NCBI RefSeq assembly: GCF_004151105.1
Contig: NZ_PHRF01000005.1
Coordinates: forward strand, 140,016 to 204,015
Length of the DNA: 64,000 nt
Direction: 5' to 3'
Source of the DNA: Streptomyces sp. L-9-10
GTDB lineage: Bacteria; Actinomycetota; Actinomycetes; Streptomycetales; Streptomycetaceae
Shown: positions 41,113 to 57,459 of the stretch, one piece after another
Position numbering within the stretch: the first letter of the stretch is position 1
Layout of the letters: the number at the start of each line of letters is the position of its first letter
Position numbers and translations under genes: made by a program
Notes under the pieces: generated by a model
The model's input: only the letters and a program-made list of their open reading frames with translations
The model's database searches: none
Told to the model about the DNA's origin: nothing

Positions 41113-41325
41113 GCCGGGAGGTCACGCCCGCCCTCCGTGGCCGACGGCCGCGATCCGCTCGGTTCCGGAACCGGATCCGGTATCGTGCTCCCACCCCACC
41201 TGGCCTTTCTCGGGCCGGCAGCCGTCGTCAGTTGCCCGGAGCACCTACGGAACCACCGCATGTGGATCGCGGTCTCATTCATGACCGCCCAACCAGTCAA
41301 TGTGATACGAGAAGAGTCAGGCACC

Positions 41326-44300
41326 ATGGCACGTCTCCGGTTTTCGCTGCTCGGCCCGCTACGGATCCTCCGGGACGGCGTCCCTCTGGCCGTGGGGTAT
41401 CCGCAGCAGCAGGCGATGCTCGCCGCGCTGCTGCTCAGGCCGGGGCGTGTCGCCGGGGCGGCCGATCTGTCCGATGCGCTGTGGGGCACGGCCCCGCCCG
41501 CGAAGGCCGTGTCGACACTGCGGACCTACGCCTGGCGCTGGCGACGGATACTCACGGCCGGTCAGCCGGACCTGGACGTACTCGTGACGTCGGGCGACGG
41601 CTACCGGCTTCACGTCCCCGAGCAGTCCATCGACGCCTTCCGGGTCACCGAGCTCACGGCCCGGGCGGACCGGGCCGGTGCGCAGGGGCGGCCCGAGCAG
41701 GCCAGGGAACTGCTGTGGCAGGCGCTGGAGTTGTGGGAGGGCGAGCCGCTCGCCGGTATGCCCGGCCCGTTCGCGGAGCGGCAGCGCCAGCGGTTCTGCG
41801 AGCTGCGCCTGACACTGCTCGAAGAGCGTCTGGCGTACGAGCTCGCGCTGGGCCACGCGGCGCGCTGCGTGCCGGAACTCACCGAGCTGACCACCGAACA
41901 CCCCCTGCGCGAACGCCCCTACGGCCTGCTGATGACGGCTCTGTATCAGGCGGGGCGGTCCGCCGACGCGCTCGGCGTCTTCCGCGGCGCCCGGCAGCTC
42001 CTCGTCGACGAACTCGGGGTGGAGCCGGGACCCGCGCTCGAAGAACTGCACCAGCGCATCCTGGAGCGCGATCCCGCCTTGGCTCCCCCGGCGTCCGAGG
42101 TGCTCAGCCTCGTCGGCGGCGCGGAGGCCGATGGGGAGAGCGAGCGGGCGAAGGATCGGCCGGAACCGCCGCCGAGCCCCCGGCCGCTGCCCATTCCGGC
42201 TCATCTCCCGCCCCAGGAGCCCGACTTCATCGGCCGCGAGGATCTCGTCGACGCACTCGACCGGTGCCTGCGGGAGCCGGAGCGCAGCACACCCGCGGTG
42301 GCCGTCCTCGTCGGCATGGGAGGGGTCGGCAAGACGTCGCTGGCACTCCATGTGGCGCACCGGGTGCGGGGCGCCTTTCCGGACGGGCAGTTGTACGCGG
42401 ATCTGCACGGCGGCGACGCGGAACCGAGCAGACCCGAGGTCGTACTGGCGAACTTCCTCTCCGCGATGGGCATCGCCGCCGACGCGCTGCCGGACGACAT
42501 CGAGGCCAGAACCGCCCTCTTCCGGTCCATGGTCGACGGCCGCCGGATGCTGATCGTGCTCGACAACGTGCGGGACGCCTGGCAGTTGCGGTCGCTGCTG
42601 CCCGCCGCCAAGGGCTGCGCCGTGGTCGTGACGAGCCGGAACAGGATGGTCGGCCTGCCGGTGACCCTGCAACTCAATGTGGACGTGTTCCACAGCTCGG
42701 AGGCCGCCCGGCTGCTGCGCCGGGCGATCGGGGAAGCGCGGGTGGCGGCCGAGCCCGAGGCGGCGCTCGGGCTCGTCGAGGCGTGCGGGTTCCTGCCGCT
42801 GGCCGTGCGGATCGTGGCCGCACGGCTCGCCTCCCGCCCCATGTGGTCCATCGCCGGCCTGCGGGAACGGCTGGCCGTGGAGTGGCGCCGCTTGGACGAG
42901 CTGCGCGCCGGTGAGCTGGCCGTCGAGGCGGTGTTCGAGCTCAGCTACCGCCAGCTGACGGCCGAACAGGCGGCGGGGTTCCGGCGGCTCGCGGCGGTGG
43001 ACTGCGGGGAGATCGGCGTTGCCGCGGCCGCGGCGATGCTCGCGACGGACGCGGCCCACGCCGAGGACACCCTCGAGTCATTGGTCGACGCCTGCCTGCT
43101 GGAGTCGAGGGTGCTCGGTCGCTACCGCTACCACGACCTGCTGCGCGCCTTCGCACGCGGCAAGTCGCGCGACGAACGGACCGACGAGGCGGCGGCGATC
43201 CAGGACCGGCTGCTCGATTTTCTGCTGTCGACGGCCTGCGAGGCGTTCCGGCACGCCGTCCCCGCCGATCCGGTGGCCAGCGCCTTCGCCCCGCCCGGAG
43301 TGCCCGGTCTGACCTTCGCCGATCTGGGCGCCGCACGGCGGTGGGCGCTGATCGAGGCGGAGGACGCCCGTGCGCTGGTGGCCCAGATCGCCTCGGCGAC
43401 GGCTCGTACGTCCGACGAGGGCGGCGCGGTGACGGACGCCGCGCGCTACGAGGACGAGGTGCGCCGGCTGCGTCGCGCTGTCGATCTGCTCATCGCGCTC
43501 AGCCCGTTCGATGTCGGCAACCGCTATGCCGAACTGGTGTCCACGGCGGATGCCCTGGTGCACGCCGCCGTGCGGCTCGGCGACCGCAGGGCCGAGGGGC
43601 GGGCCCGCTTCCTGCGGTGCACGATCGCCCTGGCCGCCGCTCGGTTCGCCGACGCCGAGACCGAGGCGAGGTCGGCGCTCACGGCGTGCCGGGAGGTGGG
43701 TGACACCGTTGTGCTCCAGCAGGTCCTCAACGACCTCGGCCTCATCGCCCAGTACATGTCGCGGTATCCCGAGGCGGTCGCGTGCTTCACCGAATCCATC
43801 GCTCTGGCCCGTGAGTTGGGCCACCGCACGGCTGAGACGGCGACCATGGTGAACGCCGCGCTCGCGCAGGTGCGCGCCGGGAACCCCACCGAGGCGGTGG
43901 TGGTCTGCCGTGAGGTCCTGGACAGCGGGGCCTACGCGCAGGACAGCTCGGGACAGGCGTACGCCATGTACGTACGGGGCCTCGCGCTACAGGCCCTGGG
44001 CGAGCACGGCGAGGCCGTGTCGTGGTTCGAGGCGTGCCTGGAGCTGTGCGCGAGCGCCGGCCTGCACTCCCGCAGTGTGCACGCGCGCTATCGCCTCGCC
44101 GAGAGCCTGCGTGCGCTCGGTGACCTCGAACAGGCCCTGCCGCACGCCGAGCAGGCGCTGGCGCAGTGTGAGGACATCGCGTTCGAGCGGGACCGGGGGC
44201 ACGCCCTGGCGATCCTCGGCCATGTGCTCGCCGACCTCGGGCGTACGGTCGAGGCGCATGCGCTGTGGGAGCGTGCGCACACGCTGTTCACGCGTCTCGA

Positions 44301-44364
44301 CCTGCCCGAGGCGGCCGCGCCGCTGCGCGGCCCGGACCACGAGTTGACCAGGGCCCCCGGGTGA
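41326..44364 (+). CDS. SARP-NB-ARC-TPR transcriptional activator (AfsR-like)
   Basis: A 1012-aa large SARP. The order is: OmpR-type winged helix (1 to about 90; RFSLLGPLRILRDGVPLAVG), bacterial transcriptional activator domain (about 97-245; SIDAFRVTELTARADRAGAQ, LGVEPGPALEELHQRILERD), NB-ARC ATPase (about 290-560; P-loop GMGGVGKTS at 330-338, MLIVLDNVRD, GFLPLAVRI), and C-terminal TPR repeats (about 780-1012). Such proteins activate secondary metabolite operons. It lies upstream, on the same strand, of the peptide/radical SAM operon starting at 45303 and is the natural candidate for its activator. The ATG at 41326 directly precedes the conserved LGPL; no strong ribosome site is visible. No TTA codon. 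Confidence 0.9.
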   Translation: MARLRFSLLGPLRILRDGVPLAVGYPQQQAMLAALLLRPGRVAGAADLSDALWGTAPPAKAVSTLRTYAWRWRRILTAGQPDLDVLVTSGDGYRLHVPEQSIDAFRVTELTARADRAGAQGRPEQARELLWQALELWEGEPLAGMPGPFAERQRQRFCELRLTLLEERLAYELALGHAARCVPELTELTTEHPLRERPYGLLMTALYQAGRSADALGVFRGARQLLVDELGVEPGPALEELHQRILERDPALAPPASEVLSLVGGAEADGESERAKDRPEPPPSPRPLPIPAHLPPQEPDFIGREDLVDALDRCLREPERSTPAVAVLVGMGGVGKTSLALHVAHRVRGAFPDGQLYADLHGGDAEPSRPEVVLANFLSAMGIAADALPDDIEARTALFRSMVDGRRMLIVLDNVRDAWQLRSLLPAAKGCAVVVTSRNRMVGLPVTLQLNVDVFHSSEAARLLRRAIGEARVAAEPEAALGLVEACGFLPLAVRIVAARLASRPMWSIAGLRERLAVEWRRLDELRAGELAVEAVFELSYRQLTAEQAAGFRRLAAVDCGEIGVAAAAAMLATDAAHAEDTLESLVDACLLESRVLGRYRYHDLLRAFARGKSRDERTDEAAAIQDRLLDFLLSTACEAFRHAVPADPVASAFAPPGVPGLTFADLGAARRWALIEAEDARALVAQIASATARTSDEGGAVTDAARYEDEVRRLRRAVDLLIALSPFDVGNRYAELVSTADALVHAAVRLGDRRAEGRARFLRCTIALAAARFADAETEARSALTACREVGDTVVLQQVLNDLGLIAQYMSRYPEAVACFTESIALARELGHRTAETATMVNAALAQVRAGNPTEAVVVCREVLDSGAYAQDSSGQAYAMYVRGLALQALGEHGEAVSWFEACLELCASAGLHSRSVHARYRLAESLRALGDLEQALPHAEQALAQCEDIAFERDRGHALAILGHVLADLGRTVEAHALWERAHTLFTRLDLPEAAAPLRGPDHELTRAPG

Positions 44365-45236: not shown

Positions 45237-45266
45237 TTGCTCCCGCTGTCGGGCGGTGCCTAACGT
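45237..45266 (+). promoter_or_regulatory. Candidate promoter of the peptide/radical SAM operon
   Basis: TTGCTC and TAACGT are spaced by 18 bp, 37 bp before the peptide ATG. Just downstream lies a TTCG-rich stretch (45272-45290) that contains the motif GTTCG twice and could be a SARP or LuxR contact. The rest of 45017-45236 shows no gene. Confidence 0.45.
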
Positions 45267-45302
45267 GATGATCGTTCGTTCCGTTCGATCAAGGAGGAAA
45301 TC

Positions 45303-45365
45303 ATGGCGAAGCACGCTGCGCTCCTGCGCCCCCGTCTCGACAAGGTCAAGCCGCAGGGCCGCTGA
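45303..45365 (+). CDS. 20-residue peptide, candidate RiPP precursor
   Basis: A 21-codon frame encodes MAKHAALLRPRLDKVKPQGR. The ribosome site AAGGAGG six bases before the ATG is the strongest in the window, so it is surely translated. The peptide is basic (three Lys, four Arg) with one Asp. It begins an operon with an M16 peptidase and a radical SAM enzyme, the arrangement of short precursors such as PqqA, though its sequence is not PqqA (no Glu-x3-Tyr). A 13-bp TTCG hairpin after the stop would let the peptide be made in excess of its enzymes. Alternative: a regulatory leader peptide, but there is no run of one amino acid to sense. No homologue recognised. Confidence 0.7.
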   Translation: MAKHAALLRPRLDKVKPQGR

Positions 45366-45381
45366 AAAGCGGAGCATTGAT

Positions 45382-45411
45382 GTATGCCGCCACCTTCGGG
45401 TGGCGGCATAC
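45382..45411 (+). terminator. 13-bp TTCG hairpin after the peptide gene
   Basis: GTATGCCGCCACC (45382-45394) pairs perfectly with GGTGGCGGCATAC (45399-45411) over a TTCG tetraloop. It lies between the peptide stop and the M16 gene, so it should act as a partial terminator or RNA-stabilising stem. Confidence 0.85.
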
Positions 45412-45449
45412 CCGCTTGACGAAAGCGAATTACCGAATGGAGGGCTGCT

Positions 45450-46667
45450 GTGCATCAGTTCACCACGGTGGACGGCCCCGTACCCGTCGTCGGCATGATC
45501 GACGAGCGGCTGAGTACGACCACCATCTGCCTCGCGTCCAAGTACGGTTCGCGACTCGACCCCGAGGGGCAGTGCGGGCTCGCCCATGTGCTGGAGCACG
45601 TACTGATGTCGGCGCCCGTCGGGGCCGTCCCGTCGCTGAGCGAGTACGTCGAGCGGCTCGGCGGGCACGCCAACGCGGAGACCGGCCTCGACCGCATGCT
45701 CTTCTACGCGCAGATAGCCCCGGACGACGCCGATGAGATCGCCGGGCTGCTCTACCAGGCGGTCCTGCGACCGCGGTGGAGCGACGACGTCCTCGAACAG
45801 GAGAAGAGGGCCGTCTTCCAGGAACTGGCCGCCGCCGCGGCCGACCACAGCGACGTCGCGCAGGACGCGTTCTTCGCGCACTCCTTCCCGGGGCATCCGA
45901 TGGGACGCCCGGTCGCGGGCACGAAGGCCGACATCGAACGGTGTGGCACGACGTCGGTCGCCGCCGCCCACGCGGAGCGGCTGCTGACCGCTCCGCTGTC
46001 GTTGATCGTGGTGGGCCCCAGGCTGCCGAAGACCGTCGATCCCGTGGTGGCCGGCATCGAGCCGCGAATCCTCGCGGCCATCGGTACGGCTCCGGCGACC
46101 ATGCCGCCCTCGCCGCCGCCGCTGCCGCCGCAACCGGTGCGCTGGTCGACGGAGTTCACGTGGCTGTGCGCGGGCGCGCGCTCGGTGCCGGAACACGATC
46201 CGCGCAGACCCCACTTCAACGTCCTCGCCCAGCTGCTCGGTTCGAGCCCGTCGTCGCTTCTGTACCGCCGGCTGCGCGGCGAGGCGGGACTCGCCTACAC
46301 CTTCTACGCGTGGAACCGCGGTTACGCCGACACCGGCGTGTGGCGCGTCCTGGCCGGTGTGGAGCCGGGCAACGGAGACGCGGCACTGGACGTGATCCGC
46401 ACCGCGCTCGACGAGGTCGCGACGAAGGGCCCCGCACCGGAGGATCTGGCCTCCGCCCGGCGCCAGGCACGGATGCGCGTCCTCACCTCCATGGACACCC
46501 CGCTGGACTGCGCCCGCTTCCTCGCCCTGCGCGGCGGCGGACTCGGTTCCTGGTCGCCCGCCGACGAGGTCGCGTACATCGACGCGGTGACCGCGGACGA
46601 TCTGCGCCGTGCCGCCGCCCACGTCCGGGACGGCCTGCGGGCCGTGGCCAGTCCGGCGGCGCCGTGA
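45450..46667 (+). CDS. M16-family zinc peptidase
   Basis: A 405-aa peptidase starting at GTG behind GGAGGG. The inverted zinc motif H46-V-L-E49-H50 with the third ligand Glu125 exactly 74 residues later fits pitrilysin/PqqF-type enzymes and indicates an active protein. The C-terminal half is the M16_C domain (LRGEAGLAYTFYAWNRGYAD). Single-repeat M16 proteins work as dimers and take short unfolded peptides into a closed chamber. Here the 20-mer just upstream is the obvious substrate: it may cut leader or follower residues from the modified peptide. No signal peptide, so it acts in the cytoplasm. Its stop overlaps the next start by four bases. Confidence 0.9.
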   Translation: MHQFTTVDGPVPVVGMIDERLSTTTICLASKYGSRLDPEGQCGLAHVLEHVLMSAPVGAVPSLSEYVERLGGHANAETGLDRMLFYAQIAPDDADEIAGLLYQAVLRPRWSDDVLEQEKRAVFQELAAAAADHSDVAQDAFFAHSFPGHPMGRPVAGTKADIERCGTTSVAAAHAERLLTAPLSLIVVGPRLPKTVDPVVAGIEPRILAAIGTAPATMPPSPPPLPPQPVRWSTEFTWLCAGARSVPEHDPRRPHFNVLAQLLGSSPSSLLYRRLRGEAGLAYTFYAWNRGYADTGVWRVLAGVEPGNGDAALDVIRTALDEVATKGPAPEDLASARRQARMRVLTSMDTPLDCARFLALRGGGLGSWSPADEVAYIDAVTADDLRRAAAHVRDGLRAVASPAAP

Positions 46668-47455
46668 ACACGACGGACGACTACCTGGAGCGGGCCCGGC
46701 TGGCCGGTCTGGTGGACGAGGTCCGCGGGCACCGGTACGTGGCCGGCGCGTACGACGACCCGTTCACCGCGCGCCCGCAGGTCCTGGTCGAGTACTGCGA
46801 CCCGGGGCTGCCCGAGGACGCCGAGGCGCTCGGTGAGCTCTGCGACCGCGTACGGAAGCGCCACACGGACGCCGAGGCGGTTCTGCTGCGCGCGTCGGGC
46901 GGTGTGCCGCTGCCGGAGCCATGGCGGCCCCGCCTCACCTATATCCGGCACGACCGCTCCGCGAACGCCACCCCGCCGCGCCCCGGTCCGGCCGGTACGG
47001 CGGTGGGCGTGCGTCCCGCCACGCCCGGCGACGACGCGCGCGTCCACGCCTGGCTGGTGCAGGCGTACCGCAACGCCTACCCGGGGCAGCAGGTCGACGC
47101 ACAACACGCCGGCATCAAGGTCGTGCTGGCGAATCCGGGACGGCGCTCGTTCATCGCCCATGTCGCGGGCGTACCCATCGGGCACGGAACGGTCCTGACC
47201 GACGAGCGGGACGAGGTCACCGGGGAGGCGTTCGCCGAGCTGGTGGACATCCTCGTCGATGACGCGGAGTACCGGCGGGAGGCGACCTCGGCACTGGTCG
47301 CCGCCGCCGCGCGGGCCACCGTCGGACGCCGTCTGTGCGGCCACGTGGTCCACCCCCACGAGCCGGAGCCGGCCCGGCACGCGGACATGGTGCTCCAGAC
47401 GCTGCTGCGCTCCGACTGGTCGATCGACCACGCCTTCTGGGAGCGCACGTGGTGA
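46664..47455 (+). CDS. GNAT-like acyltransferase-domain protein
   Basis: A 263-aa protein beginning at the GTG of a GTGA overlap with the peptidase stop. Residues 110-250 look like a GNAT fold: VGVRPATPGDDARVHAWLVQ opens beta1/alpha1, and a central strand with GVPIGHGTVLTDE and ELVDILVDDAEYRREATSAL matches the acetyl-CoA binding region loosely; the usual Q/RxxGxG/A loop is not clear. The first 110 residues (RARLAGLVDEVRGHRYVAGA) have no known domain. It may acylate the peptide or an amino group on a precursor. Assignment to GNAT is moderate; it could be a substrate-recognition subunit. Confidence 0.6.
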   Translation: MNTTDDYLERARLAGLVDEVRGHRYVAGAYDDPFTARPQVLVEYCDPGLPEDAEALGELCDRVRKRHTDAEAVLLRASGGVPLPEPWRPRLTYIRHDRSANATPPRPGPAGTAVGVRPATPGDDARVHAWLVQAYRNAYPGQQVDAQHAGIKVVLANPGRRSFIAHVAGVPIGHGTVLTDERDEVTGEAFAELVDILVDDAEYRREATSALVAAAARATVGRRLCGHVVHPHEPEPARHADMVLQTLLRSDWSIDHAFWERTW

Positions 47456-47472
47456 CCCACGAAGGGATACAC

Positions 47473-48615
47473 ATGCCCGACTCGCCCGCCGGGTCGCCTC
47501 TCGCCGCGCCGCCCGCGCCCACGCTGGATCTCTTCTTCGCCGCCTTGGGCGTGGACCCGCAGGAACCTCTGCGGGACCTCGTCCGCGGCGCCCGCTCGCT
47601 GCGCGGCCACCTGGCGCCCCTGATCCTGTCCGTCGCGGCCCATCAGGGGGCGGCCCTCGGCAGCGGCTCCCGCGACGAAGTGCGCCGCATGCGGGTCCGG
47701 GTCGACGACTACCGCGAACTCGCGGCGCTCCTGTCGGCCGATGTGCCCGGGGTCCGCGTCCTCAAGGGCCCGTCGCTGGCGGATCACTACCCGAGCGAGG
47801 TGCTGCGCCCCAGCGGTGACCTGGACGCGTACGTACCGGACGAGGCGGCGCTGTGGCAGGCCGTGGCGACGGTGCTCCGCGCCCGGCCGGTGAGCGATGT
47901 CGATGTGACGGTGCTGGGCAGCGGGGCGCGCGTGCACTGGGTGGTGGTGCTGCGCTGGCCCGCGCAGGACCCGGTCCTCGATCCCGATCACCGCGTCGAG
48001 TTGGTGACCTTCGCCTACCCCGGCGAGCCCGGCGTGCTGCCGGTGCGTGCCGAGCCGCCGCCGGACCAGGTGACCTGCGACCTGCTGGCCATCGCGGAGG
48101 AGGCGTTCCAGCGGCCCTTCAGCGTCAAGGACGTCCTCGACCTGGCACTCGCTCTGAACAGCCCCGGCTGTCCGCCCCCGGCGGCCCTCGCCGAGGCCGC
48201 CGACCGCTACCGGCTCGCGCCGGAACTGCTGCGGCTGAGCCGGACGCTGCACGACACCCACGCGCTGCCGAGCCCGGTCAACGACCGCCTCCTGACACTG
48301 CTGCGCGGCCCCGCCGCGCGCGGTCTGGCCGAGCGGCGCGCCCGCGAGGCCGCTCCCCCGGAGCCCGAGCGCGCCTGGACCCGGGAGCCCTGTCTGAACA
48401 GTGGCCGTTCCCTGCACGGCCTGCGGCTGCCCGCCGGGCCGACGCCCGGCCCGGACACCGAAGTGTGTTTCCACCCGTTCGCCGACGGCGTTCTGCTGCG
48501 CTGCCCGGTAGGCGACTTCCTGATGGTCGGGACGGAGCTCGTGGACCCCGCCGCCTACCACGCGGCGCTCGTCGAACTCCGGCGGCTGCGCGCCCTCAAC
48601 GGGGCGCGGCCATGA
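47473..48615 (+). CDS. NTP_transf_5-type nucleotidyltransferase
   Basis: A 380-aa protein of the uncharacterised nucleotidyltransferase family PF14907. The pattern VLKGPSLADHYPSEVL followed by RPSGDLDAYV matches its KG-x-n-Y and GDLD elements: the two Asp of DLD are metal ligands of the pol-beta-type active site. Relatives sit in RiPP clusters, for example beside the kinase of the paeninodin lasso peptide. It may transfer NMP to a hydroxyl, phosphate or carboxylate on the peptide. GAAGGG precedes the ATG at 47473; GTG codons just upstream are alternatives. Its stop overlaps the ABC ATPase start (ATGA). Confidence 0.78.
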   Translation: MPDSPAGSPLAAPPAPTLDLFFAALGVDPQEPLRDLVRGARSLRGHLAPLILSVAAHQGAALGSGSRDEVRRMRVRVDDYRELAALLSADVPGVRVLKGPSLADHYPSEVLRPSGDLDAYVPDEAALWQAVATVLRARPVSDVDVTVLGSGARVHWVVVLRWPAQDPVLDPDHRVELVTFAYPGEPGVLPVRAEPPPDQVTCDLLAIAEEAFQRPFSVKDVLDLALALNSPGCPPPAALAEAADRYRLAPELLRLSRTLHDTHALPSPVNDRLLTLLRGPAARGLAERRAREAAPPEPERAWTREPCLNSGRSLHGLRLPAGPTPGPDTEVCFHPFADGVLLRCPVGDFLMVGTELVDPAAYHAALVELRRLRALNGARP

Positions 48616-49556
48616 GCACCGTCGATGTCCAGGACCTCACCCGCCGGTTCCGCGGCCGCAAGGGCACCGAGGTCACCGCGCTCGACGCGGTGAGCCTGCG
48701 CGCCGAGGAAGGCGAGGTCGTGGGGCTCCTCGGGCCCAACGGCGCGGGCAAGACCACGCTGTCGCGGATCCTCACGACGCTGCTGCTGCCCACGTCCGGC
48801 TCGGCCCGCGTGGAGGGCCTCGACGTGGTGCGCGACGCGCCCAGGGTGCGCGAGCGCATCGGCCTCGTACTCGGCGGTGAACGCGGGCTCTACGGACGCC
48901 TGACGGCCCGCCAGAACCTGCGCTACTGGGGCGCCATGCAGGGGCTCACCGGCAGCCGTTGCCGCCGCCGGGCCGACGAGCTTCTGGAGCGCCTCGGCCT
49001 CGCCGAGCGTGCCGACGACCGCGTGGAGACGTACTCGCGTGGCATGGTGCAGCGGGTCCACCTGGCCCGCGCGCTGCTCCGTGACCCGCGCCTGCTCATC
49101 ATGGACGAGCCCACCAGCGGCATGGACCCCCATGCGGCGCAGGGCTTCCGCGGGCTCGTCGAGGAGCTGCGCGACGGCGGTTCGACCGTGCTCCTCGCCA
49201 CTCACGACATGCAGGAAGCGCAGGCGCTGTGCTCGCGGGTCGCGCTGATCGACCACGGCCGCATCCTGCGGGAGGGCGCGCCGAAGGACCTGCTCACCGG
49301 TCTCGACACGCCCCGGACCGTGACCGCGGGCGGGGTGTCGGCGGACGCCGCGGAGACCGTCGCACGTATCCCGGGCGTCACCCTGGACGGGCCGACGCCG
49401 GAGGGGTTCGCGACGCTCCGGATCACGGAGGACGACGCGGTGTCCGAGGTGCTCCGGGTACTGACCGCCGCGGGAGTGCGCGAACTGTCGGTGGCCGCGC
49501 CCACCCTGGCCGAGGTGTACCGGTCCATCATCGAGGACCGGGAGTTCGCCCTCTGA
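48612..49556 (+). CDS. ABC exporter ATPase
   Basis: A 314-aa DrrA-like ATPase of the ABC-2 type. Walker A is GPNGAGKTT (41-49), signature YSRGMVQRVHLA (a variant of LSGGQ), Walker B LLIMDEPTSG and switch His in LLATHDM. The C-terminal extension of about 80 residues (DAVSEVLRVLTAAGVRELSV, then TLAEVYRSIIEDRE) is usual for exporters. With the two permeases that follow, overlapping by one and eight bases, it should export the finished product or give self-resistance. Confidence 0.92.
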   Translation: MSTVDVQDLTRRFRGRKGTEVTALDAVSLRAEEGEVVGLLGPNGAGKTTLSRILTTLLLPTSGSARVEGLDVVRDAPRVRERIGLVLGGERGLYGRLTARQNLRYWGAMQGLTGSRCRRRADELLERLGLAERADDRVETYSRGMVQRVHLARALLRDPRLLIMDEPTSGMDPHAAQGFRGLVEELRDGGSTVLLATHDMQEAQALCSRVALIDHGRILREGAPKDLLTGLDTPRTVTAGGVSADAAETVARIPGVTLDGPTPEGFATLRITEDDAVSEVLRVLTAAGVRELSVAAPTLAEVYRSIIEDREFAL

Positions 49557-50311
49557 TGGCCGCCTTCGTGCGATTGCAGTGGCTGCTCCTGACGCGGTCC
49601 CCGCGCCTGCTGGCCACGCTGTTCGTCGTCCCGCTGTACGCGATCGTCCTCTTCACCACCGTGCGCTCGTACGGGGCGCCGGAGCTGGCCGCCACCGTGG
49701 CGCTGACCGCCTTCTCGATGAGCATGTGGTCGCAGGCGATGTTCGTCGCGGCGGAAGTCGTCGACAACGACCGCTGGGACGGCACCTTGGAGCCCTCGCT
49801 CCTCACCCCGGACGCCTATGTGCGCTCACTGGTGACGCGGGTCTGCACCATCACCGCGCTGAGCGTGCCGGTCCTGGTGGAGGTCATCGCGATCGGCCGG
49901 ATCGGCTTCGGATTCCCGCTGCCCGTGCAGGAGCCCCTCACCGCGCTCGCGGCCGTGCTGCTGCTCGTGGTCGGCACCGCGGGGTCGGCGCTCCTGGTCT
50001 GCGCGCTCATGATCCTCGTACCACTGGGGCGCCTGCTGCAGAACGCCCTGACCTACCCCTTCTACATCCTCGGCGGCCTGATTCTCCCCGTCACCTCCCT
50101 GCCGGCCCCCGTCGAGTGGATCGCGCGGCTGTTCTTCCTCTCCCACGGGGCGCAGCTGCTCCGTGACGCGATGACCGGGTCCGGACACGGCCGGCCGGCC
50201 CACTTCACGGCCCTGATCGTCCTGTCGGCCCTCCAGCTGGCGGTGGGCGTGTTCCTGCTGCGCCGCGCCCTGTCACGGGCCCGCCGGGGGGAGGCCAGGC
50301 TCTGTGCGTAA
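49556..50311 (+). CDS. ABC-2 permease, first subunit
   Basis: A 251-aa membrane protein with six helices (LLATLFVVPLYAIVLFTTVR, VEVIAIGRIGFGF, LTALAAVLLLVVGTAGSALL, FYILGGLILPVTSLP). The FYILGGLILPVTSLPAPVEW block near the end is typical of ABC-2 drug/polysaccharide exporters. It forms a heterodimer with the next gene product. Start ATG shares its A with the previous TGA (TGATG). Confidence 0.88.
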   Translation: MAAFVRLQWLLLTRSPRLLATLFVVPLYAIVLFTTVRSYGAPELAATVALTAFSMSMWSQAMFVAAEVVDNDRWDGTLEPSLLTPDAYVRSLVTRVCTITALSVPVLVEVIAIGRIGFGFPLPVQEPLTALAAVLLLVVGTAGSALLVCALMILVPLGRLLQNALTYPFYILGGLILPVTSLPAPVEWIARLFFLSHGAQLLRDAMTGSGHGRPAHFTALIVLSALQLAVGVFLLRRALSRARRGEARLCA

Positions 50312-51095
50312 CGCCAAGGCGCTGCTCCACCAGATCGGCTACGGACTGCTGAGCAGCTACCAGGACTACCGCGCGCTCTACACATGGCGCTCGTGGCTGT
50401 TCGGCTGGATGGTGCGGCTGTTGTGCCAGGTCCTGTTCTTCTCGATGGTGGGCCAGGCGATCGGCTCGGACGGCGCGCAGCGCTACATGGCGCTGGGCAA
50501 CGCGGTGATCCTGGGACCGCTCGGCGCGCTCGGCGTCGTGTCCTCCAGCGTCGGTGAACGCCGGGGCGGAACCCTGCAGTTCCTGCTGCTCAGCCGCAAC
50601 GGCCCGTTCCCTGTACTGATGTCACGGGGGCTGTACTGGGCCGTCGACGGCATCGTCGCCTCGTGCTTCGCCCTCGTCGTGCTGCGCTGGCTGGTAGGGG
50701 TCGAGATCGGTCCGCTGGTCCTGCCCGTCTGCTTCCTGCTCCAGGTGCTGATCACGCTCAGCGGCTACAGCCTGGCCCTCGCCCTCGCGGGGGTCAGCCT
50801 GCGGTGGCCGGAGTGCCGCATGTATCTGACAGCCGGGACGACGATCCTGCTGATGACGCTCGCCGGGGTCAACACGGAGCCGCCGCGCGAGGGTTTCGGC
50901 GGCGTCCTCGTCTCGGTGCTCCCGGCCACGCACGGGCTGCGTGCGATGCGTTCGGCCGTGGCCGGTGACGGCGTTCCGCTCACCGCCGTCCTCGCGGAGT
51001 GCGGGGTGCTGCTCCTCTGGGGCGCGGTCAGCTGGCTGACGCTCACCGGGTCCCTCCGCCACCAGGTGCGCGCCGGCACCCTCACCCTCCGCTGA
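50304..51095 (+). CDS. ABC-2 permease, second subunit
   Basis: A 263-aa membrane protein starting at GTG, eight bases inside the first permease gene. Features of the DrrB/CcmB kind include LFGWMVRLLCQVLFFSMVGQ, GDERRGGTLQFLLLSR-type coupling segment (GERRGGTLQFLLLSR) and the late helix LTAVLAECGVLLLWGAVSW. Partner of the preceding permease; together with the ATPase it makes a complete exporter. A 54-bp gap follows, the largest in the operon after the peptide hairpin. Confidence 0.88.
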   Translation: MRNAKALLHQIGYGLLSSYQDYRALYTWRSWLFGWMVRLLCQVLFFSMVGQAIGSDGAQRYMALGNAVILGPLGALGVVSSSVGERRGGTLQFLLLSRNGPFPVLMSRGLYWAVDGIVASCFALVVLRWLVGVEIGPLVLPVCFLLQVLITLSGYSLALALAGVSLRWPECRMYLTAGTTILLMTLAGVNTEPPREGFGGVLVSVLPATHGLRAMRSAVAGDGVPLTAVLAECGVLLLWGAVSWLTLTGSLRHQVRAGTLTLR

Positions 51096-51149
51096 GGTCC
51101 GCTCCCCCGTCCCGACGTCCCCACCGTTTCCAGCAGAGAGATGCCGCCC

Positions 51150-51863
51150 ATGAGCACTGCGCACACCTACAGCCTGGTCGGCCCGCCCGGGTCGGGGAAG
51201 ACCACGCAGGCCGCGCGCCTCGTCGCGGTCCTGGGCGAGACCTGGGGATCCCCGGTCCTGTGCGCGTCGGTGCCCGCGCTGCTGCGCGGCGACCGCGCCG
51301 TCGACGCCCGCCTCACCCCGCGGGAGCGGACCCGCGTGGCCCGGGTGCGCGGGGCAGCGCACGCGCGGGCCGACCGGGGCGAGCTGATGCCCGCCGAACT
51401 CGACCGCGTCCTGCTGGAGTTGGCGAGCAGGGTGGCCGAGAGCGAACCGGTCGTGCTCGACAGCGTGCCGCGCGGACGCGAGCAGGCCCGCCTCCTGCTG
51501 GCGAGCGGCCTCCCCATCGAACAGCTGACGGTGTTTCATCTCCGGCCCCCGGGCGACCCGTTGGACTTCTCGCTGCGCCGACAGCTCTCCCGGGCGGCGC
51601 CCACCGGCGAGAGCCCGACCGTGCGGGACCTCGCACGGATGAAGCGGAAGGCCGGTGTCTACGTCGAGCAGAGCCTCCCCGCTCTCACCGACATCGCGCG
51701 CGCCGGGGCGCCCGTGGCCGACATCGACGCGGACGCTCCCGTCGAGTGGGTCGCCCAGGAGATACACGACCACCTGGCACGCGGCGGAGCCCTGCGACCG
51801 CCCCGCGCCGTGGCCGCCACCGGCGTCGGTCCGACGCGGCAAGGAGGCGAGCCGTGCGTCTGA
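51150..51863 (+). CDS. NMP-kinase-like P-loop protein
   Basis: A 237-aa protein with Walker A GPPGSGKTT (11-19) and an adenylate-kinase-like core: LLLELASRVAESEPVVLDSV and PRGREQARLLL correspond to the D-G-x-P-R region of NMP kinases, here DSVPR. FHLRPPGDPLDFSLRRQL and the short lid (KRKAGVYVEQSLPAL) replace the standard lid domain, so it is not the housekeeping Adk. It may phosphorylate a nucleotide or the modified peptide. The ATG at 51150 is taken because a start at 51141 would have its ribosome site touching the codon. Its 3' end overlaps the phosphatase by ten bases. Confidence 0.75.
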   Translation: MSTAHTYSLVGPPGSGKTTQAARLVAVLGETWGSPVLCASVPALLRGDRAVDARLTPRERTRVARVRGAAHARADRGELMPAELDRVLLELASRVAESEPVVLDSVPRGREQARLLLASGLPIEQLTVFHLRPPGDPLDFSLRRQLSRAAPTGESPTVRDLARMKRKAGVYVEQSLPALTDIARAGAPVADIDADAPVEWVAQEIHDHLARGGALRPPRAVAATGVGPTRQGGEPCV

Positions 51864-52450
51864 TCCTGGTCCGGCACGGACGTACGCAGGCCAACGCGCG
51901 GGCACGCTTCCCGCTCTCCTCCGCCGTACCGCTGGACGCAACCGGCCGCGAGCAGGTCACGCGCACCGGGCAGCAGATCGCCGCCACGGACTTCCGGCCC
52001 GAGATCATCCACAGCAGCGACGCCGAGCGCGCCGCGCAGACCGCCGCCCTGCTCAGGGACGTGATCGCACCGGGACTGCCCATCGTGCCGCGCACCGACC
52101 TGCGCGAACTGGACTGGGGCGAGCTGCGCGGACGGTCCACCTCCACGGGCCCCGCGGGCGAGGCCGCGTACGCCCGCTGGCAGCGCGACCCGATGGGCCG
52201 GCTGCCCGGCGGGGAGGGGCTCGCCGACGTGGCGGCCCGGGTGGCCCGGGTGCTGCGGCTGATCACCGACGACGGGCGTCCGGCGATCGTCGTGTCCCAC
52301 GCGGTCACACTCACCGTCCTGACGGCACAGGCCAACGGCTGGGACCTCGCCGAGACCTGGCGTTCACACCGGGCGCACCTGTCCACCGGACAGTTCCGCC
52401 TCCTCGACCTGCCCGCACCACACGGTGCGGTCCGCCCTCTCCCCCACTGA
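51854..52450 (+). CDS. Histidine phosphatase-superfamily protein
   Basis: A 198-aa phosphoglycerate-mutase-like phosphatase. The catalytic RHG (residues 7-9) lies in LILVRHGRTQANARARF; SDAERAAQTA, RELDWGELRGR and the second catalytic His in IVVSHAVTLTVL complete the active site. AAGGAGG precedes the GTG start. CobC/Gpm-type members remove phosphate from small metabolites; with a kinase, NTP-transferase and PEP-type phosphotransferase in the operon it could remove a protecting phosphate late in biosynthesis (inference). Confidence 0.9.
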   Translation: MRLILVRHGRTQANARARFPLSSAVPLDATGREQVTRTGQQIAATDFRPEIIHSSDAERAAQTAALLRDVIAPGLPIVPRTDLRELDWGELRGRSTSTGPAGEAAYARWQRDPMGRLPGGEGLADVAARVARVLRLITDDGRPAIVVSHAVTLTVLTAQANGWDLAETWRSHRAHLSTGQFRLLDLPAPHGAVRPLPH

Positions 52451-52478
52451 CCCCGTACCACGTGAAAGGTGCACCGCC

Positions 52479-53417
52479 ATGGCCTACCCGTCGCTGTCCC
52501 CACTGATCGAGGAAGGCGTGCTCGATGAGGTCCTGGAAGGACTCGGCTTCCTCCACGCGAACGACCGCTGCCGCCGCAACTGCACCCACTGCCCCGCCTT
52601 CGGGGACACGAATCCGGTGGAGATGACGCCCTTCGCGACCCTGACGCGGCTCGCACGCGACGTCGGCGAGGCGTTCCAGGACCGCGGGATCACCCCGCGG
52701 CGCAGCATCGCCTCCTGGCGGATCAGTGATCCGCTCGACTACCACGTCAGGGACGGCAAAACCACCCGGACCACGTTCGACGTCGCCCGCCTATGGCGTG
52801 AACACCTCGGTCAGGGGCTGTACCTGGTGACCAACGGCAGCGAGGGCAAGCGGTTCGCGCAGACCGCGCTGCGCCAGGTCGCCGCGGCGCCCGAGGTCGT
52901 CTCGCAGGTCAAGCTGACCGTCACGCCCTGCGACGCGGGCTGGGGCAGCGAGCGCTATCTGCACAGCATCGCCGAGGACGTCGCGACGCTCGCGACGCTG
53001 TGGGACCTGGGCTCGACCCGCATGGAGGACCCCACGGGCCTGCGGTTCCGCATCAATCTCAAATCGACGGCGGACCGGCGCGAAGAGGCGCTCCAGTTCA
53101 TGGCCCGGGCACTGGAGTTGGCCGGGCTGCGCCCCGACGAGTCGGAGAAGGCACTGGCCGATCCGCGGCGCGTCTCGGCGAAGGACATCTACGACCTGGG
53201 CTCGTACGTCGGGGACAGCCCGGTCGTGAACGCTCTCAGTATCAAGGGGCGGGACGGGAAGCGGTTCAAGTCGACCGCGGAGACCCGCACACACCACCAG
53301 TACGGCATCTACCCCGACGGCAGCGTCCGGGTCATCGACATGTACGAGTTCAAGGTCTACGAGGCGACCGGCGAGTCCGGCGCGCCGCTCCGCGTCGACC
53401 TGCGGAGCGCCGCCTGA
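52479..53417 (+). CDS. Radical SAM enzyme
   Basis: A 312-aa radical SAM protein with the iron-sulfur motif C31-x3-C35-x2-C38 (CRRNCTHC). The barrel continues with RRSIASWRISDPLDY, GLYLVTNGSEGKRF and VSQVKLTVTPCDAGWG. There is no Cys-rich SPASM or twitch extension, so only one cluster is expected. It lacks an obvious RRE-type peptide-binding domain. In the operon it is the best candidate for forming a C-C, C-N or epimerised centre on the 20-mer or a cofactor-like intermediate; the chemistry cannot be named from sequence. Gap of 28 bp to the phosphatase, 47 to the next gene. Confidence 0.9.
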   Translation: MAYPSLSPLIEEGVLDEVLEGLGFLHANDRCRRNCTHCPAFGDTNPVEMTPFATLTRLARDVGEAFQDRGITPRRSIASWRISDPLDYHVRDGKTTRTTFDVARLWREHLGQGLYLVTNGSEGKRFAQTALRQVAAAPEVVSQVKLTVTPCDAGWGSERYLHSIAEDVATLATLWDLGSTRMEDPTGLRFRINLKSTADRREEALQFMARALELAGLRPDESEKALADPRRVSAKDIYDLGSYVGDSPVVNALSIKGRDGKRFKSTAETRTHHQYGIYPDGSVRVIDMYEFKVYEATGESGAPLRVDLRSAA

Positions 53418-53464
53418 CGTCCGGCACCGGGCCGGGGCGGAGGAAACAGAGGACAGGAGTCAAG

Positions 53465-55498
53465 GTGAAGCAGGACAGAGTCGTACCGCTGTATCGAGCC
53501 GACGGGTTCCCGACGCTGCTCACGGGCGCGAAGGCACAGGCCCTGGCCCGCCTGAACGGGGCCGGCCTTTCGGTCCCGGACGGCGTCTGCGTGACCTCCC
53601 TCTGGTTCGGCGAGGTGGCGTCCCGCACGGACATCGGCCGGTCGATCGAGCACAACCTGCGCGACCTCAGCGCGATCCCCACCGGCACGGGCCGCTCCCT
53701 GGAACTCATCCGCCGTGCCCTGACACGCACGCCGTGGCCCGACGACCTGGTCGCGGAGGTGAGCGAGGCGGCACGGCGGCTGCTCGCGGCGGGGCCGGTG
53801 ATGGTGCGCTCCTCGGTTCCGGTGGAGGACGGTGCCGGACTGTCCTTCGCCGGTGTCTTCGAGTCCGAGGGCCCACTGGAGTCCGTGCCGGAGGTCCTCG
53901 CGGCGCTCGGCCGCTGCTGGGCGGCGCTGTACTCGGCCCGCGTCGTGTCGTACGCCCGCGGCCGACTGCCCGACGAGTACGCCGCTTTCCTCCAGTCCTG
54001 GGTGCGGCCCGACGCGCACGGTGTGCTGTTCACCCGGGATCCGGTCACGCGCGCCGACGGGCCGATCACCGATGTCGCCTGGGGCAACACGACCGACACC
54101 ACGTCAGGGCGCGCGAGCGCCGGCCGCGTCGCTCTCACAGCCGGTGACGGCGACGGCGACTCCGGCGTCACACTGCCGCGCGCACTGCGGGACTCGCTCA
54201 ACTCCCTTGCCCGGCAGGGCGAACAGCTCTTCGGCCATCCGCTCGACATCGAGTGGGTGTGGAGCGACGGCCGCCTCCACACGCTACAGGCGCGGCCGAT
54301 CACGCACGCCACCGCGACCCGCGCCCCGGCGGCCGCGTGGTGGCCCGACTCCGATGTCGGGGCACTGCACGACGTCGACCTCGGCCTGTGCCGACGGCGC
54401 TTCGAAGGCGCCCTGATGAAGCACATCTGGCTGCGGCGGCAGTGCGCGGCTCTCGACGTGCCGACGTACCGCGAGGCGTACGTCGTCTACCGCCCGGAGG
54501 ACACGCGGCGACTCGCGGACGAGCTCGCCGGTCATCTGCGCACCGAGTACGTCCAGGTCAACTGGGCCGCGCGCGGCACAGGCACCGTCGCACCGCTGGC
54601 GGAGCTCGCCCTCCACCTCAAGCGCGGGCACGACCGCAACCCGTTGGGCGACCCGGCGTTCTGCGCGGCGCACATCGGGGAGATCGTGCCCGCCGAGGCG
54701 TCCGGCTTCTCCGCCGTGCTCGGTGACGGGACCGTCGTCATCGAGGCGTTCCCCGCCGGGCTTCCGGGCATCAAGGAGGGCGGGCTCGTCCCGTCGGTCT
54801 TCACTGTCACGCCCGCCGGGCAGGTCGTCCGCGAGCACATCGCCACGTTCGACCGCCGGTGCCGCGTCGAGCCCGGCGAGGGCTGGTGGTGGCACCCGGA
54901 GGACACACCCCCGTACACCTTCGACCGGCCCGACGCCGAGGTCCTGGACATCGCCGGCCTCACCCGCGCCCTGTGCGAGTCCCTCGGGGAGGCACGTGTG
55001 GAGTGGTACGCCGGTGACGAAGGCGCCATGGTCCGTGACGTCAGCCTCGAAGGCGGTCGCCTCGACGCCCCCTCGTCCCCCGGCGGGCAGCTGATCTCGG
55101 GCGGTGTCGCCTCGGGTACGGTCCTCAACCTGCCGGACCTCGGGGATCTCGACGAGGCGGCCCGCACGCTGGAGGTCAGCGTCGTCGGCTCCGGCATGGA
55201 CAACGCCGCGGTCATGGCGGACGCCCGGATCACCGCCGCCGTCGACGCGGTCGGCGGCGCCAAGGACGTCATCGTGGTGGCCGAGTACCCGTCGGCGGGG
55301 CTCATCCCGCTGGTGGACCTCGCCGCGGGCTTCGTCTTCCAGCGCGGCAACCTCCTGTGCCACACCGCCATCGTGCTGCGTGAACGAGGAGTCCCGGCGA
55401 TCGTGTCACCCGGTGCCGCGCGGCTGCGGGACGGGATGGCGGTGGAGATCTCGCCCGCCGGGGTAACGGTCCTGAGCGACCGGGGGCAGGCGTGCTAG
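53465..55498 (+). CDS. PEP synthase/rifampin-phosphotransferase-like protein
   Basis: A 677-aa protein starting at GTG behind AGGAG. The N-terminal ATP-binding domain of the PEP-synthase/PPDK type shows VRSSVPVEDGAGLSFAG (from Val114, with Glu121-Asp122) and HPLDIEWVWSDGRLHTLQAR plus PIT. The C-terminal swivelling phosphohistidine domain has its His at 633 (LLCHTAIVLRERGVPAIV). Between them about 300 residues have no known fold, and the PEP-binding barrel of PpsA is missing. Domain order ATP-substrate-His is that of rifampin phosphotransferase, which cleaves ATP to AMP and Pi and phosphorylates its target through His. It may therefore phosphorylate the peptide or a small precursor. The following gene starts inside its last codons. 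Confidence 0.85.
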   Translation: MKQDRVVPLYRADGFPTLLTGAKAQALARLNGAGLSVPDGVCVTSLWFGEVASRTDIGRSIEHNLRDLSAIPTGTGRSLELIRRALTRTPWPDDLVAEVSEAARRLLAAGPVMVRSSVPVEDGAGLSFAGVFESEGPLESVPEVLAALGRCWAALYSARVVSYARGRLPDEYAAFLQSWVRPDAHGVLFTRDPVTRADGPITDVAWGNTTDTTSGRASAGRVALTAGDGDGDSGVTLPRALRDSLNSLARQGEQLFGHPLDIEWVWSDGRLHTLQARPITHATATRAPAAAWWPDSDVGALHDVDLGLCRRRFEGALMKHIWLRRQCAALDVPTYREAYVVYRPEDTRRLADELAGHLRTEYVQVNWAARGTGTVAPLAELALHLKRGHDRNPLGDPAFCAAHIGEIVPAEASGFSAVLGDGTVVIEAFPAGLPGIKEGGLVPSVFTVTPAGQVVREHIATFDRRCRVEPGEGWWWHPEDTPPYTFDRPDAEVLDIAGLTRALCESLGEARVEWYAGDEGAMVRDVSLEGGRLDAPSSPGGQLISGGVASGTVLNLPDLGDLDEAARTLEVSVVGSGMDNAAVMADARITAAVDAVGGAKDVIVVAEYPSAGLIPLVDLAAGFVFQRGNLLCHTAIVLRERGVPAIVSPGAARLRDGMAVEISPAGVTVLSDRGQAC

Positions 55499-57066
55499 CA
55501 CCCCAACCACTCTGGCGTACAAGGGCGTTGCGGGCTCTCGACCTGGACGACGCTCGGCTGGTCGAACGGCTGCTGTGCGACGACTCCCGAGGCAGTGAGG
55601 CGTGGCGGCGGCTGCTGGCACGGGCGGACTTCGTCCCCGACGGCTTCACGGCGGCCGAGCGGATGAACGGCGGGGTACTGCTCGGCCCTTCGGAGAGCGA
55701 CTTCGGCTCATGGCTCTCCGGCATGATCGCGGGGAAGCTGCGACGGGTGACGCCCCCGGCCGGCGGCGGGGCCGACGGGGCCGACGGGGACCATGGCAGC
55801 GGCTGGGGCGGTCACGGCGACGGGCGCGACCGGGGCGACGACGACCGCGGGGACGCGGACCCCGCCGTCGTCGCCTTCTGCCACGAACAGACGATGCGGC
55901 TGCTCGAACACTCCGTGGCGGGGGCACCGGTGGCACGGACGCTGGCCAACCAGGAGGTGCCGTCGGTGGTGGACCGCGTCATCGCGCACTGCGTGTTCGG
56001 CGACGTCCGGGCACCGGTGGTCACGCACCGGACCTACGCACACCGCTCCGTCCGTGTGGCTCTGGAACTCGCCTCGTCGGTTGCCGAGAGGTGCGGCCAG
56101 GACCTGGCCGCCCTGCTGCGCTACAGCCTCGCCGCCGGACTCATCGGCGCCGGGCAGAAGCTGCGCGCCCCCGGCCCCGGGACGGCGCTGCCCGTCGGCG
56201 ACTCGGATGATCCCGCGGCAGTGGCACGGGGACTGTGGCCGAAGTACCGGGAACTGGCCGAGCGCCCGCTGCTCGTCGACCACTGGGAGGCCTTCCGCGC
56301 CGACGTACTGGACGGGCCGTGCCGGTTGGTGTGGTTCTTCGACGACTGCGCCGAGACCGTGATCGACCTCCTGCTGCTCGACCGCCTCGTGGCGGCCAAT
56401 CCCCGGCTCCAGCTGACCCTGGTCCCCAAGTCCCTGCCGTGTTATACGGACGCCGACACCGCTCTCGTACTGCGCCTGCTCGACTCGCCGCGCCTGCGCG
56501 CGCTCGGCGTCGAGCGGTTGCGGGCCACGGACGTCTGCACCACCGGACCGAGCATGGCCACGGCCAACCTGCGCAAAGTGTCCCCGGAACTCGCCCGGGC
56601 GCTGGACGAAGCACAGTGCGTGTTCGTGAAGGGCACCAACATCCACGAGATGTTCCAGGGTGGCATCAGCAAAGTGATGTACACCGGATTCGTGCTGGTC
56701 AGCGAGTTCAACGAAAGCGCGATAGGAGTGGACGCGAGCACCGCGCCGCTGCTCCTGGTCCGCTCCGGGCCGGGCGAGTACACGAACTGGGGGTTCGAGG
56801 GACGCCGCAACCGCACGGTGCGGTACGCCGACGGCCGTGAAGTCCCGTTGTGCTGGAGCACCCTGATGGACCGGGAACGCCGCACACAGTGCACCGAACC
56901 GGCCCTGCTCCGCGACGAGTTGCATCTGCTCACCTCACTCGCCGGACAGGTCGCGCCCAGGACGCGTGCCGCACTGGAGAGCGAGAGGGAGCGGGTGAGC
57001 CGAAGGCTGCACCAGCTCACAGGGGCGACAGCCGGGCCGATCCCCTCCCCTACCCTCTCCTCATAG
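55492..57066 (+). CDS. DUF89/ARMT1-like protein
   Basis: A 524-aa protein of the DUF89 (damage-control phosphatase/ARMT1-like) family. Key blocks are VWFFDDCAETVIDLLLLDRL, where DDCAE stands for the usual DNAGE metal site, then LTLVPKSLPCYTDADTALVL and FVKGTNIHEMFQGGISKVMY. Family members dephosphorylate sugar or nucleotide phosphates with Co/Ni/Mn; ARMT1 is also reported to methylate carboxylates. Here it could hydrolyse a phospho-intermediate in the pathway. A Gly/Asp-rich loop at about 83-125 is unlike other members. GTG start overlaps the previous gene by seven bases. Confidence 0.85.
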   Translation: MLAPQPLWRTRALRALDLDDARLVERLLCDDSRGSEAWRRLLARADFVPDGFTAAERMNGGVLLGPSESDFGSWLSGMIAGKLRRVTPPAGGGADGADGDHGSGWGGHGDGRDRGDDDRGDADPAVVAFCHEQTMRLLEHSVAGAPVARTLANQEVPSVVDRVIAHCVFGDVRAPVVTHRTYAHRSVRVALELASSVAERCGQDLAALLRYSLAAGLIGAGQKLRAPGPGTALPVGDSDDPAAVARGLWPKYRELAERPLLVDHWEAFRADVLDGPCRLVWFFDDCAETVIDLLLLDRLVAANPRLQLTLVPKSLPCYTDADTALVLRLLDSPRLRALGVERLRATDVCTTGPSMATANLRKVSPELARALDEAQCVFVKGTNIHEMFQGGISKVMYTGFVLVSEFNESAIGVDASTAPLLLVRSGPGEYTNWGFEGRRNRTVRYADGREVPLCWSTLMDRERRTQCTEPALLRDELHLLTSLAGQVAPRTRAALESERERVSRRLHQLTGATAGPIPSPTLSS

Positions 57067-57098
57067 CTGCCGCCCCCTCCCCCGACCTTGGAGCCCAC

Positions 57099-57431
57099 GT
57101 GCCGGAGCCCGAAGCCGACTGGCTGGACGAAGTCGAACGCATCGCCGCCGGGGCGATCGAGCGCTTCCCCCGCCACAACGACATCTTCCACCTCGTCTCC
57201 CGCCTGGCCGAGGAGACGGGGGAAGTCGCCCAGCAGATCAACCGCTTGGAGGGCATGGGCGTCAAACGCGAGCGCCACGGCGAACCGGACGTCGACAACC
57301 TCACCAAGGAGGTGCTCGACGTGGTGCGCTGCGCCGTGACCATCGCCATGCACTACGGCTGTGTCGACGACCTCCGGGCGCTCACCTCGGAGAAGCTGGC
57401 TTCGTATCGCCTGGAGGGATGGGTGAGCTGA
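57099..57431 (+). CDS. MazG-like nucleotide pyrophosphohydrolase
   Basis: A 110-aa all-alpha NTP pyrophosphatase. The magnesium motif E38-E39-x2-E42 (RLAEETGEVAQQI) and E71-x2-D74 (KEVLDVVRC) are complete. GTG at 57099 follows GGAG at a good distance. It cuts NTPs to NMP and pyrophosphate, and is short like the dUTPase/MazG-type iMazG proteins. As the last gene of the operon it could supply NMP to the kinase-like protein or clear a toxic NTP product. Convergent with the MBL-fold gene 28 bp on. Confidence 0.85.
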   Translation: MPEPEADWLDEVERIAAGAIERFPRHNDIFHLVSRLAEETGEVAQQINRLEGMGVKRERHGEPDVDNLTKEVLDVVRCAVTIAMHYGCVDDLRALTSEKLASYRLEGWVS

Positions 57432-57459
57432 CGCCGCCCGGCATCCGCCCATCCGCCCG

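Follow-up and report, generated by a model that had tools for sequence, protein, structure and literature searches.

A conserved thirteen-gene Streptomyces operon joining a 20-residue peptide gene with a radical SAM enzyme and nucleotide-type enzymes

In the present work, we examined an operon of thirteen genes on the plus strand of a 64,000-nt stretch of DNA (the window) from the 8.85-Mb genome of Streptomyces sp. L-9-10. The operon, at 45303..57431 of the window, opens with a gene for a 20-residue peptide and continues with a peptidase, an acyltransferase-like protein, an exporter and a set of nucleotide- and phosphate-type enzymes that includes a radical S-adenosylmethionine (SAM) enzyme of an unnamed family. 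All thirteen genes, the peptide gene included, are collinear in four other Streptomyces loci (L006, L007, L008, and L009), that is, in five of five operons. This shared order, together with the unique occurrence of the peptide's LRPRLDK core (see below), places the gene set beyond chance, and we conclude that the operon is rare but real. The explanation that we favor, with a probability of roughly 0.4, is that it makes a natural product of the peptide-nucleotide type in two modules.

Results

A preliminary description of the window had claimed a thirteen-gene co-directional run joined by overlaps or short gaps. All thirteen genes were found on the plus strand and most of them overlap, but a gap of 84 nt holding a hairpin separates the peptide gene from the M16 gene. 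The operon had also been called undescribed, and our search of the open-access literature in PubMed Central (PMC) likewise turned up no account of it. The genes are as follows (PEP, phosphoenolpyruvate; pLDDT, predicted local distance difference test).

45303..45365, plus strand: 20-residue peptide gene, MAKHAALLRPRLDKVKPQGR, candidate precursor or scaffold; in 5/5 operons, LRPRLDK invariant
45450..46667, plus strand: M16 peptidase, HxxEH intact (HVLEH); PF00675 and PF05193 above cut-off
46664..47455, plus strand: tandem-GNAT-fold acyltransferase-like protein; no Pfam match; AF2 model with pLDDT 80.5 and fold matches
47452..48615, plus strand: PF14907-like nucleotidyltransferase, SGDLDA motif, start uncertain; PF14907 30.4 bits (cut-off 31.2)
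48606..49556, plus strand: ABC transporter ATPase, weakly DrrA-like; PF00005 110 bits
49553..50311, plus strand: first ABC-2 permease; PF01061 33.5 bits (cut-off 26.9)
50304..51095, plus strand: second ABC-2 permease; PF01061 23.2 bits, under the cut-off of 26.9
51141..51863, plus strand: adenylate-kinase-like nucleotide kinase, Walker A GPPGSGKT; adenylate kinase models E 5e-8 and weaker, far under cut-off
51860..52450, plus strand: histidine phosphatase, nearest CobC-type; PF00300 122 bits; TIGR03162 91 bits (cut-off 163)
52479..53417, plus strand: radical SAM enzyme of an unnamed family, CRRNCTHC; CxxxCxxC and model fold
53465..55498, plus strand: PEP-synthase/Rph-like enzyme; PF01326 and PF00391 (ATP-binding and swivelling His domains), swivel His motif CHTAIV; no match to a C-terminal PEP domain
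55492..57066, plus strand: DUF89/ARMT1-like phosphatase-type protein; PF01937 50.6 bits (cut-off 25)
57060..57431, plus strand: MazG-like protein, start uncertain; PF03819 19.6 bits (cut-off 22)

The Pfam scan covered the twelve enzymes and transporters. Matches above cut-off supported most of the gene families named earlier (M16, ABC ATPase, first ABC-2 permease, histidine phosphatase, PPDK_N with PEP-utilizers, and DUF89/ARMT1), but the PF14907, MazG, nucleotide kinase, and second ABC-2 permease matches remained below it. The annotations of the kinase, MazG, and the phosphatases bear out the presence of nucleotide- and phosphate-type enzymes, and a three-gene ABC system, predicted to export, is present as well.

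The preliminary description had suggested a new class of ribosomally synthesized and post-translationally modified peptide (RiPP). Pathways of this kind have a conserved precursor gene beside processing enzymes, and such an arrangement was found in all five Streptomyces operons, each with a short basic open reading frame (ORF) and a strong ribosome site ahead of the M16 gene; in the window, AAGGAGG lies 5 nt ahead of the peptide's ATG. The five operons encode four distinct peptides (MAKHAALLRPRLDKVKPQGR, MAKHASILRPRLDKVKPQDR, MAKHAAALRPRLDKVKPKDN, and MVRHHAVSLRPRLDKIRVRAGK), the last being common to L007 and L009, which together form the Streptomyces lavendulae type as opposed to the window type of the window, L006, and L008. 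LRPRLDK is unchanged in all four, and the three DNA positions that vary within it are synonymous third positions. A degenerate DNA pattern for this core had a single match in each of three operon-bearing genomes (G000, G226, and G038), always the peptide gene, and none in the two genomes introduced below that carry only part of the operon (G1412 and G1082), where a reversed control pattern matched twice and once. Ser, Thr, Tyr, and Cys are all absent from the window peptide, which rules out conventional O-phosphorylation as well as chemistry on cysteine and means that any attachment would be via Arg, Lys, His, Asp, Gln, or a terminus. The phosphorylated peptide that had been envisaged is thus unlikely in the usual sense. 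The window peptide contains R-P-R and K-V-K, and the lavendulae-type peptide R-P-R, K-I-R, and R-V-R.

Divergence along the operon is uneven. Relative to the window, L006 and L008 show 68-93% identity in every enzyme, with M16 at 86-87%. Identity in the lavendulae-type operons drops to 42% for M16 and to 33% for the GNAT-like protein, and the peptide is altered outside its core, whereas the other ten genes stay at 61-83%. Peptide, M16, and GNAT have therefore changed as a block, which fits enzymes that are matched to their peptide. The HVLEH motif and PF00675 match identify the first of these enzymes as an M16 peptidase; its top NCBIfam model was YfmF (74.4 bits, cut-off 285), and PqqF scored 27.6 bits (cut-off 320). 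In class III lanthipeptides, M16 heteromers are reported to cut off leaders (PMC10885120). The GNAT-like label stands on the predicted model, which has the tandem fold of the GNAT superfamily, but not on Pfam, and the model's fold matches include peptide and amino-acid transferases. The model further resembles Sba18/Sbb17, peptide synthases that depend on aminoacyl-tRNA and whose structures were solved with streptothrisamine, and the group that the protein transfers might be aminoacyl instead of acetyl.

The radical SAM protein had no radical SAM family match in Pfam and no match of any kind in NCBIfam. The label is upheld by its CxxxCxxC motif and by the partial TIM-barrel fold of the predicted model, features of the radical SAM superfamily, but not by the family libraries. 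Fold neighbors of the model include the RiPP maturases EpeE, SuiB, and SkfB. When the family profile was compared with solved structures, TM_1862 (E 0.59) and RimO (E 0.91) were matched around the cysteine motif, and the only other match was an unrelated protein at E 0.59. At E <= 0.001, the family comprised 53 proteins, fragments included, 46 of them with CxxxCxxC; four metagenomic relatives (P0050-P0053) lack the motif and still align over much of the remainder. In an alignment of 28 rows, none of the columns listed as invariant or nearly so is a cysteine, and hence nothing points to a conserved auxiliary cluster besides CxxxCxxC.

Relatives of the radical SAM protein are sparse, in counts that, except for the last, are lower bounds since only 5 to 13 first-look candidates were scored per genome: 3 of 392 genomes of the genus (source genome included), the source genome alone in the class (1/394) and family (1/170) samples, 2 of 354 genomes of one further, distant family, and none in two other families (0/341 and 0/22). 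Two named genome contigs, of S. flavofungini and S. lavendulae, also carry one, and in S. albus the locus tags of the radical SAM (13045), PEP-synthase-like (13040), and DUF89 (13035) genes adjoin. No radical SAM relative was found in the viral contigs, plasmids, or phages searched, and no DUF89 relative in the plasmids searched. In a 46-row tree, the rows that stand for peptide operons (P0001 for the window, P0002 with 99% identity to L006, and P0003 with a sequence identical to that of L007) form one clade with P0004 (99/94), nested in a group with P0005 and Pilimelia (100/100) and far from the two rows of the distant family. The peptide operons seen lie within one narrow clade of a broad radical SAM family.

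The two relatives in the distant family, which we take to be Micromonosporaceae, were read in their surroundings (L013, 19.9 kb; L014, 15 kb). Both loci hold a closely packed cassette of P-loop kinase, radical SAM enzyme, DUF89 protein, MazG, and histidine phosphatase, in this order; the radical SAM protein of one genome (G1412) is 99.7% identical to P0036 from Virgisporangium aurantiacum. Within these stretches, nothing related to the peptide, M16, GNAT, PF14907, or PEP-synthase-like protein was matched at better than E 0.1 (best chance match, E 0.16), and relatives of the PF14907 protein were absent from both whole genomes. About 1.5 kb upstream and 0.6 kb downstream of the cassette, no short ORF with a ribosome site was common to the two loci: L013 had none with a ribosome-site-like sequence, and L014 had five matches (four ORFs), none LRPRLDK-like. 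Two generic ABC ATPases of L014 lie on the opposite strand, more than 4 kb from the cassette. Upstream of the L014 cassette are a GntR/UTRA regulator (2-685) and a small helix-turn-helix-like ORF (940-1179) without a Pfam match, perhaps a sign of a mobile element. In Pilimelia, radical SAM and DUF89 relatives are each on an 18,470-nt contig, from which no PEP-synthase-like relative appeared among the 120 of 183 matches listed.

The occurrence of the cassette without the peptide indicates that the radical SAM core extends more widely than the peptide module and that this peptide is probably not required as the substrate of the radical SAM enzyme. The preliminary description treated the peptide and M16 genes as regular members of such operons and had a single enzyme set act on the peptide. 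The five Streptomyces operons, with peptide, M16, and radical SAM enzyme together, agree with that view, but the two distant loci hold the core without peptide or M16, although two loci do not make a rule and a precursor of unrelated sequence may lie elsewhere.

The remaining enzymes were compared with known families. Homology of the PF14907-like protein starts at residue 24 in some relatives. Against solved structures, the nucleotide kinase matched adenylate kinases at E 7e-4 or weaker, ranked under two designed TIM barrels that match its C-terminal part (E 3e-5 to 5e-5). The DUF89 protein has the DD..E, K, and KG..HE residues of DUF89/ARMT1-like proteins conserved in eight rows, presumably as a metal site, and matched the structure of At2g17340 at E 0.018. 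The PEP-synthase-like protein matched solved PEP synthases. For this protein and DUF89, the searches scored the 7994 candidates with the most words in common and give no measure of how far the two genes follow the radical SAM family. Among the 120 of 183 PEP-synthase-like matches listed, close relatives number ten and are nearly confined to Streptomyces and Kitasatospora: nine come from these genera or a close source (two incomplete) and one is at 37%, and the next relative listed has 35% identity over 43% of the length. Scores of 142 and 130 bits on the PigC and RedH ligase models, far below cut-off, offer a lead that this domain layout includes ligases.

Three further features accompany the operon.

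45237..45266, plus strand: promoter-like TTGCTC-18-TAACGT; conserved in 3/3 window-type operons (read by eye in the alignment)
45382..45411, plus strand: 13-bp hairpin 3' of the peptide gene, without a T run; z -2.98 for 45290-45450
41137..44364, plus strand: BTAD/NB-ARC/TPR regulator, a possible cluster regulator in the window's sub-lineage, with relatives upstream

A hairpin follows the peptide gene in all five loci. It is identical in the window and L006 and differs by one end base in L008, and the lavendulae type has a different sequence. The terminator scan did not call the hairpin, nor did the consensus promoter scan call anything at 45237..45266; from its position and stability, the hairpin is likely a partial terminator. 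An attenuator was considered and rejected: over the four loci tested (window, L006, L007, and L008, with L009 left out), no antiterminator pairing was conserved. Upstream pairing of the 5' arm was never better than most shuffles (fraction as low, 0.20-0.96). The 3' arm pairs strongly upstream in L006 (about 2735-2883) and L008 (about 2694-2842), where 0.01 and 0.00 of 300 mononucleotide shuffles reached as low a value; the window and L007 showed no such strong pairing (0.56 and 0.33). Rfam gave no match above gathering score for 44300-59000 of the window.

Relatives of the BTAD regulator lie upstream in all three window-type loci (74% and 51% identity in the other two, the latter about 2.7 kb away), and none was found within about 2.5-2.8 kb upstream of the peptide in the two lavendulae-type loci. 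In two related Streptomyces proteins (P0044 and P0046), a BTAD regulator is joined in frame to roughly the final third of the radical SAM protein (95-96% identity in this part), and the PEP-synthase-like P0058 and P0046 are each on a 543,369-nt contig; apparently, these are deletion remnants of the operon in strains where the regulator also lay upstream. Downstream of the operon (57460-59524) are a metallo-beta-lactamase-fold hydrolase and an AraC/cupin regulator, neither of which tblastn found in L006, L007, L008, or L009. The L007 operon is flanked, as judged by eye, by a metal P-type ATPase/CsoR-like pair (1-1832) and a BlaI/M56-like pair (15173-16473), and the insertion site of the lavendulae-type operon seems to differ from the window's. 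A defense system was also considered and set aside, a PADLOC scan of eight operon proteins and two L014 proteins having given weak P-loop matches alone.

Discussion

In the two-module explanation that we favor, the first module consists of the peptide, the M16 peptidase, and the tandem-GNAT protein. The M16 peptidase would trim the conserved 20-residue peptide and the GNAT-like protein would acylate it. The second module, made up of kinase, histidine phosphatase, radical SAM enzyme, DUF89 protein, and MazG, would carry out nucleotide or phosphosugar chemistry and build a small group from such a compound. The PEP-synthase-like enzyme, a putative dikinase or ligase by its domain layout, and the PF14907 nucleotidyltransferase would then activate and attach this group; since these two proteins were seen here only with the peptide type, they are the leading candidates for the joining reaction. 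The ABC system would export the joined product. In this scheme we infer the substrates, the joining, the export and the product, as well as any bioactivity, from gene content and conservation. A more ambitious version, which we regard as rather unlikely in all its parts together, is that the operon represents a new natural product class, in which a PEP-synthase-like ligase would couple the LRPRLDK peptide covalently, at a terminus or at a residue without a hydroxyl group, to a nucleotide or phosphosugar made by the radical SAM enzyme, and that the five-gene cassette would itself be a new, wider nucleotide-modifying pathway recruited by Streptomyces.

Several points weigh against the two-module explanation. 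Over the whole peptide gene, third positions are not in excess among the differences that separate the three close operons. The promoter region is also changed in the lavendulae type, and the block change may therefore stem from a single 5' recombination. In addition, the peptide may serve as a regulatory leader, with mixed results for the 3' arm in the pairing test, and in Streptomyces it may still be a substrate of the radical SAM enzyme.

The last of these possibilities corresponds to a RiPP pathway in which the radical SAM and phosphate enzymes all act on the peptide. The proximity of peptide, M16, and radical SAM genes in all five Streptomyces operons speaks for such a pathway, as do the maturases among the fold neighbors. 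We nevertheless consider it unlikely, given the persistence of radical SAM, DUF89, MazG, and phosphatase genes with no related peptide or M16 nearby in the two distant loci, the lack of Ser, Thr, Tyr, and Cys in the window peptide, and the lack of indicated auxiliary-cluster cysteines. Improbable too is a regulatory leader, by which ribosome stalling would control read-through of the hairpin and the operon product would be of nucleoside type without a ribosomal peptide. R/K-x-R/K motifs are a feature of stalling peptides in drug-inducible leaders, and the R-P-R and K-V-K of the window peptide resemble them; a short ORF with a strong ribosome site and a hairpin do precede the first enzyme gene, and in L006 and L008 the 3' arm finds a strong pairing partner upstream. 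However, strong pairing was confined to these two of four loci, no alternative pairing was conserved among them, and M16 and GNAT would be left unexplained. Lastly, a nucleoside or cofactor pathway, with M16 and GNAT for resistance or housekeeping and the peptide a chance ORF, is very doubtful: the five-gene core is nucleotide-like by itself, but LRPRLDK is kept in four distinct peptides with synonymous changes only and is unique in three genomes.

Among known systems, microcin C is a tiny ribosomal peptide whose operon combines nucleotide chemistry with an exporter. The operon described here resembles it in having a tiny peptide gene among nucleotide-type enzymes and an exporter, but no ThiF-like adenylating enzyme was matched by Pfam among its twelve scanned proteins, its peptide is longer, and C-terminal Asn occurs in just one of the four distinct peptides. 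Pyrroloquinoline quinone (PQQ) and other radical SAM plus M16 pathways share a short precursor, a radical SAM enzyme, and an M16 peptidase with it; unlike them, the operon has no PqqD/PqqE-type match, and its core cassette occurs without the peptide. PQQ biosynthesis itself was rejected, as the low PqqF score of M16 was the only match and the radical SAM protein had none. In the phosphorylated or glycosylated lasso peptides paeninodin and pseudomycoidin, a nucleotidyltransferase-like protein, phosphate chemistry, and a small peptide likewise occur together, and PsmN, a nucleotidyltransferase-like protein of a lasso cluster, can decorate a phosphorylated peptide (PMC9266682). In contrast, no B1/B2 or cyclase match was obtained by Pfam among the twelve operon proteins, and the window peptide has no Ser or Thr to be so modified. 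The operon departs from viperin-type radical SAM enzymes that occur with a nucleotide kinase in that its radical SAM protein has no NCBIfam match and is partnered by DUF89, MazG, and phosphatase. The PEP-synthase-like enzyme shares an ATP-binding domain and a swivelling His domain with the Rph and PigC/RedH enzymes, but it scored 115-142 bits against cut-offs of 999-1350 and belongs to a separate subfamily, and rifamycin phosphotransferase (115 bits, cut-off 999) was rejected as its identity.

An unnamed radical SAM family thus gains a defined set of partners, and a natural comparison becomes available, in which the same enzyme core occurs both alongside a ribosomal peptide and on its own. Even if the peptide is regulatory, the five-gene cassette would constitute a phosphate-chemistry pathway that we did not find described in the open-access literature and that can be tested in vitro. 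Should the two-module explanation be true, there would be in Streptomyces a second route to peptide-nucleotide compounds, with chemistry unrelated to that of microcin C.

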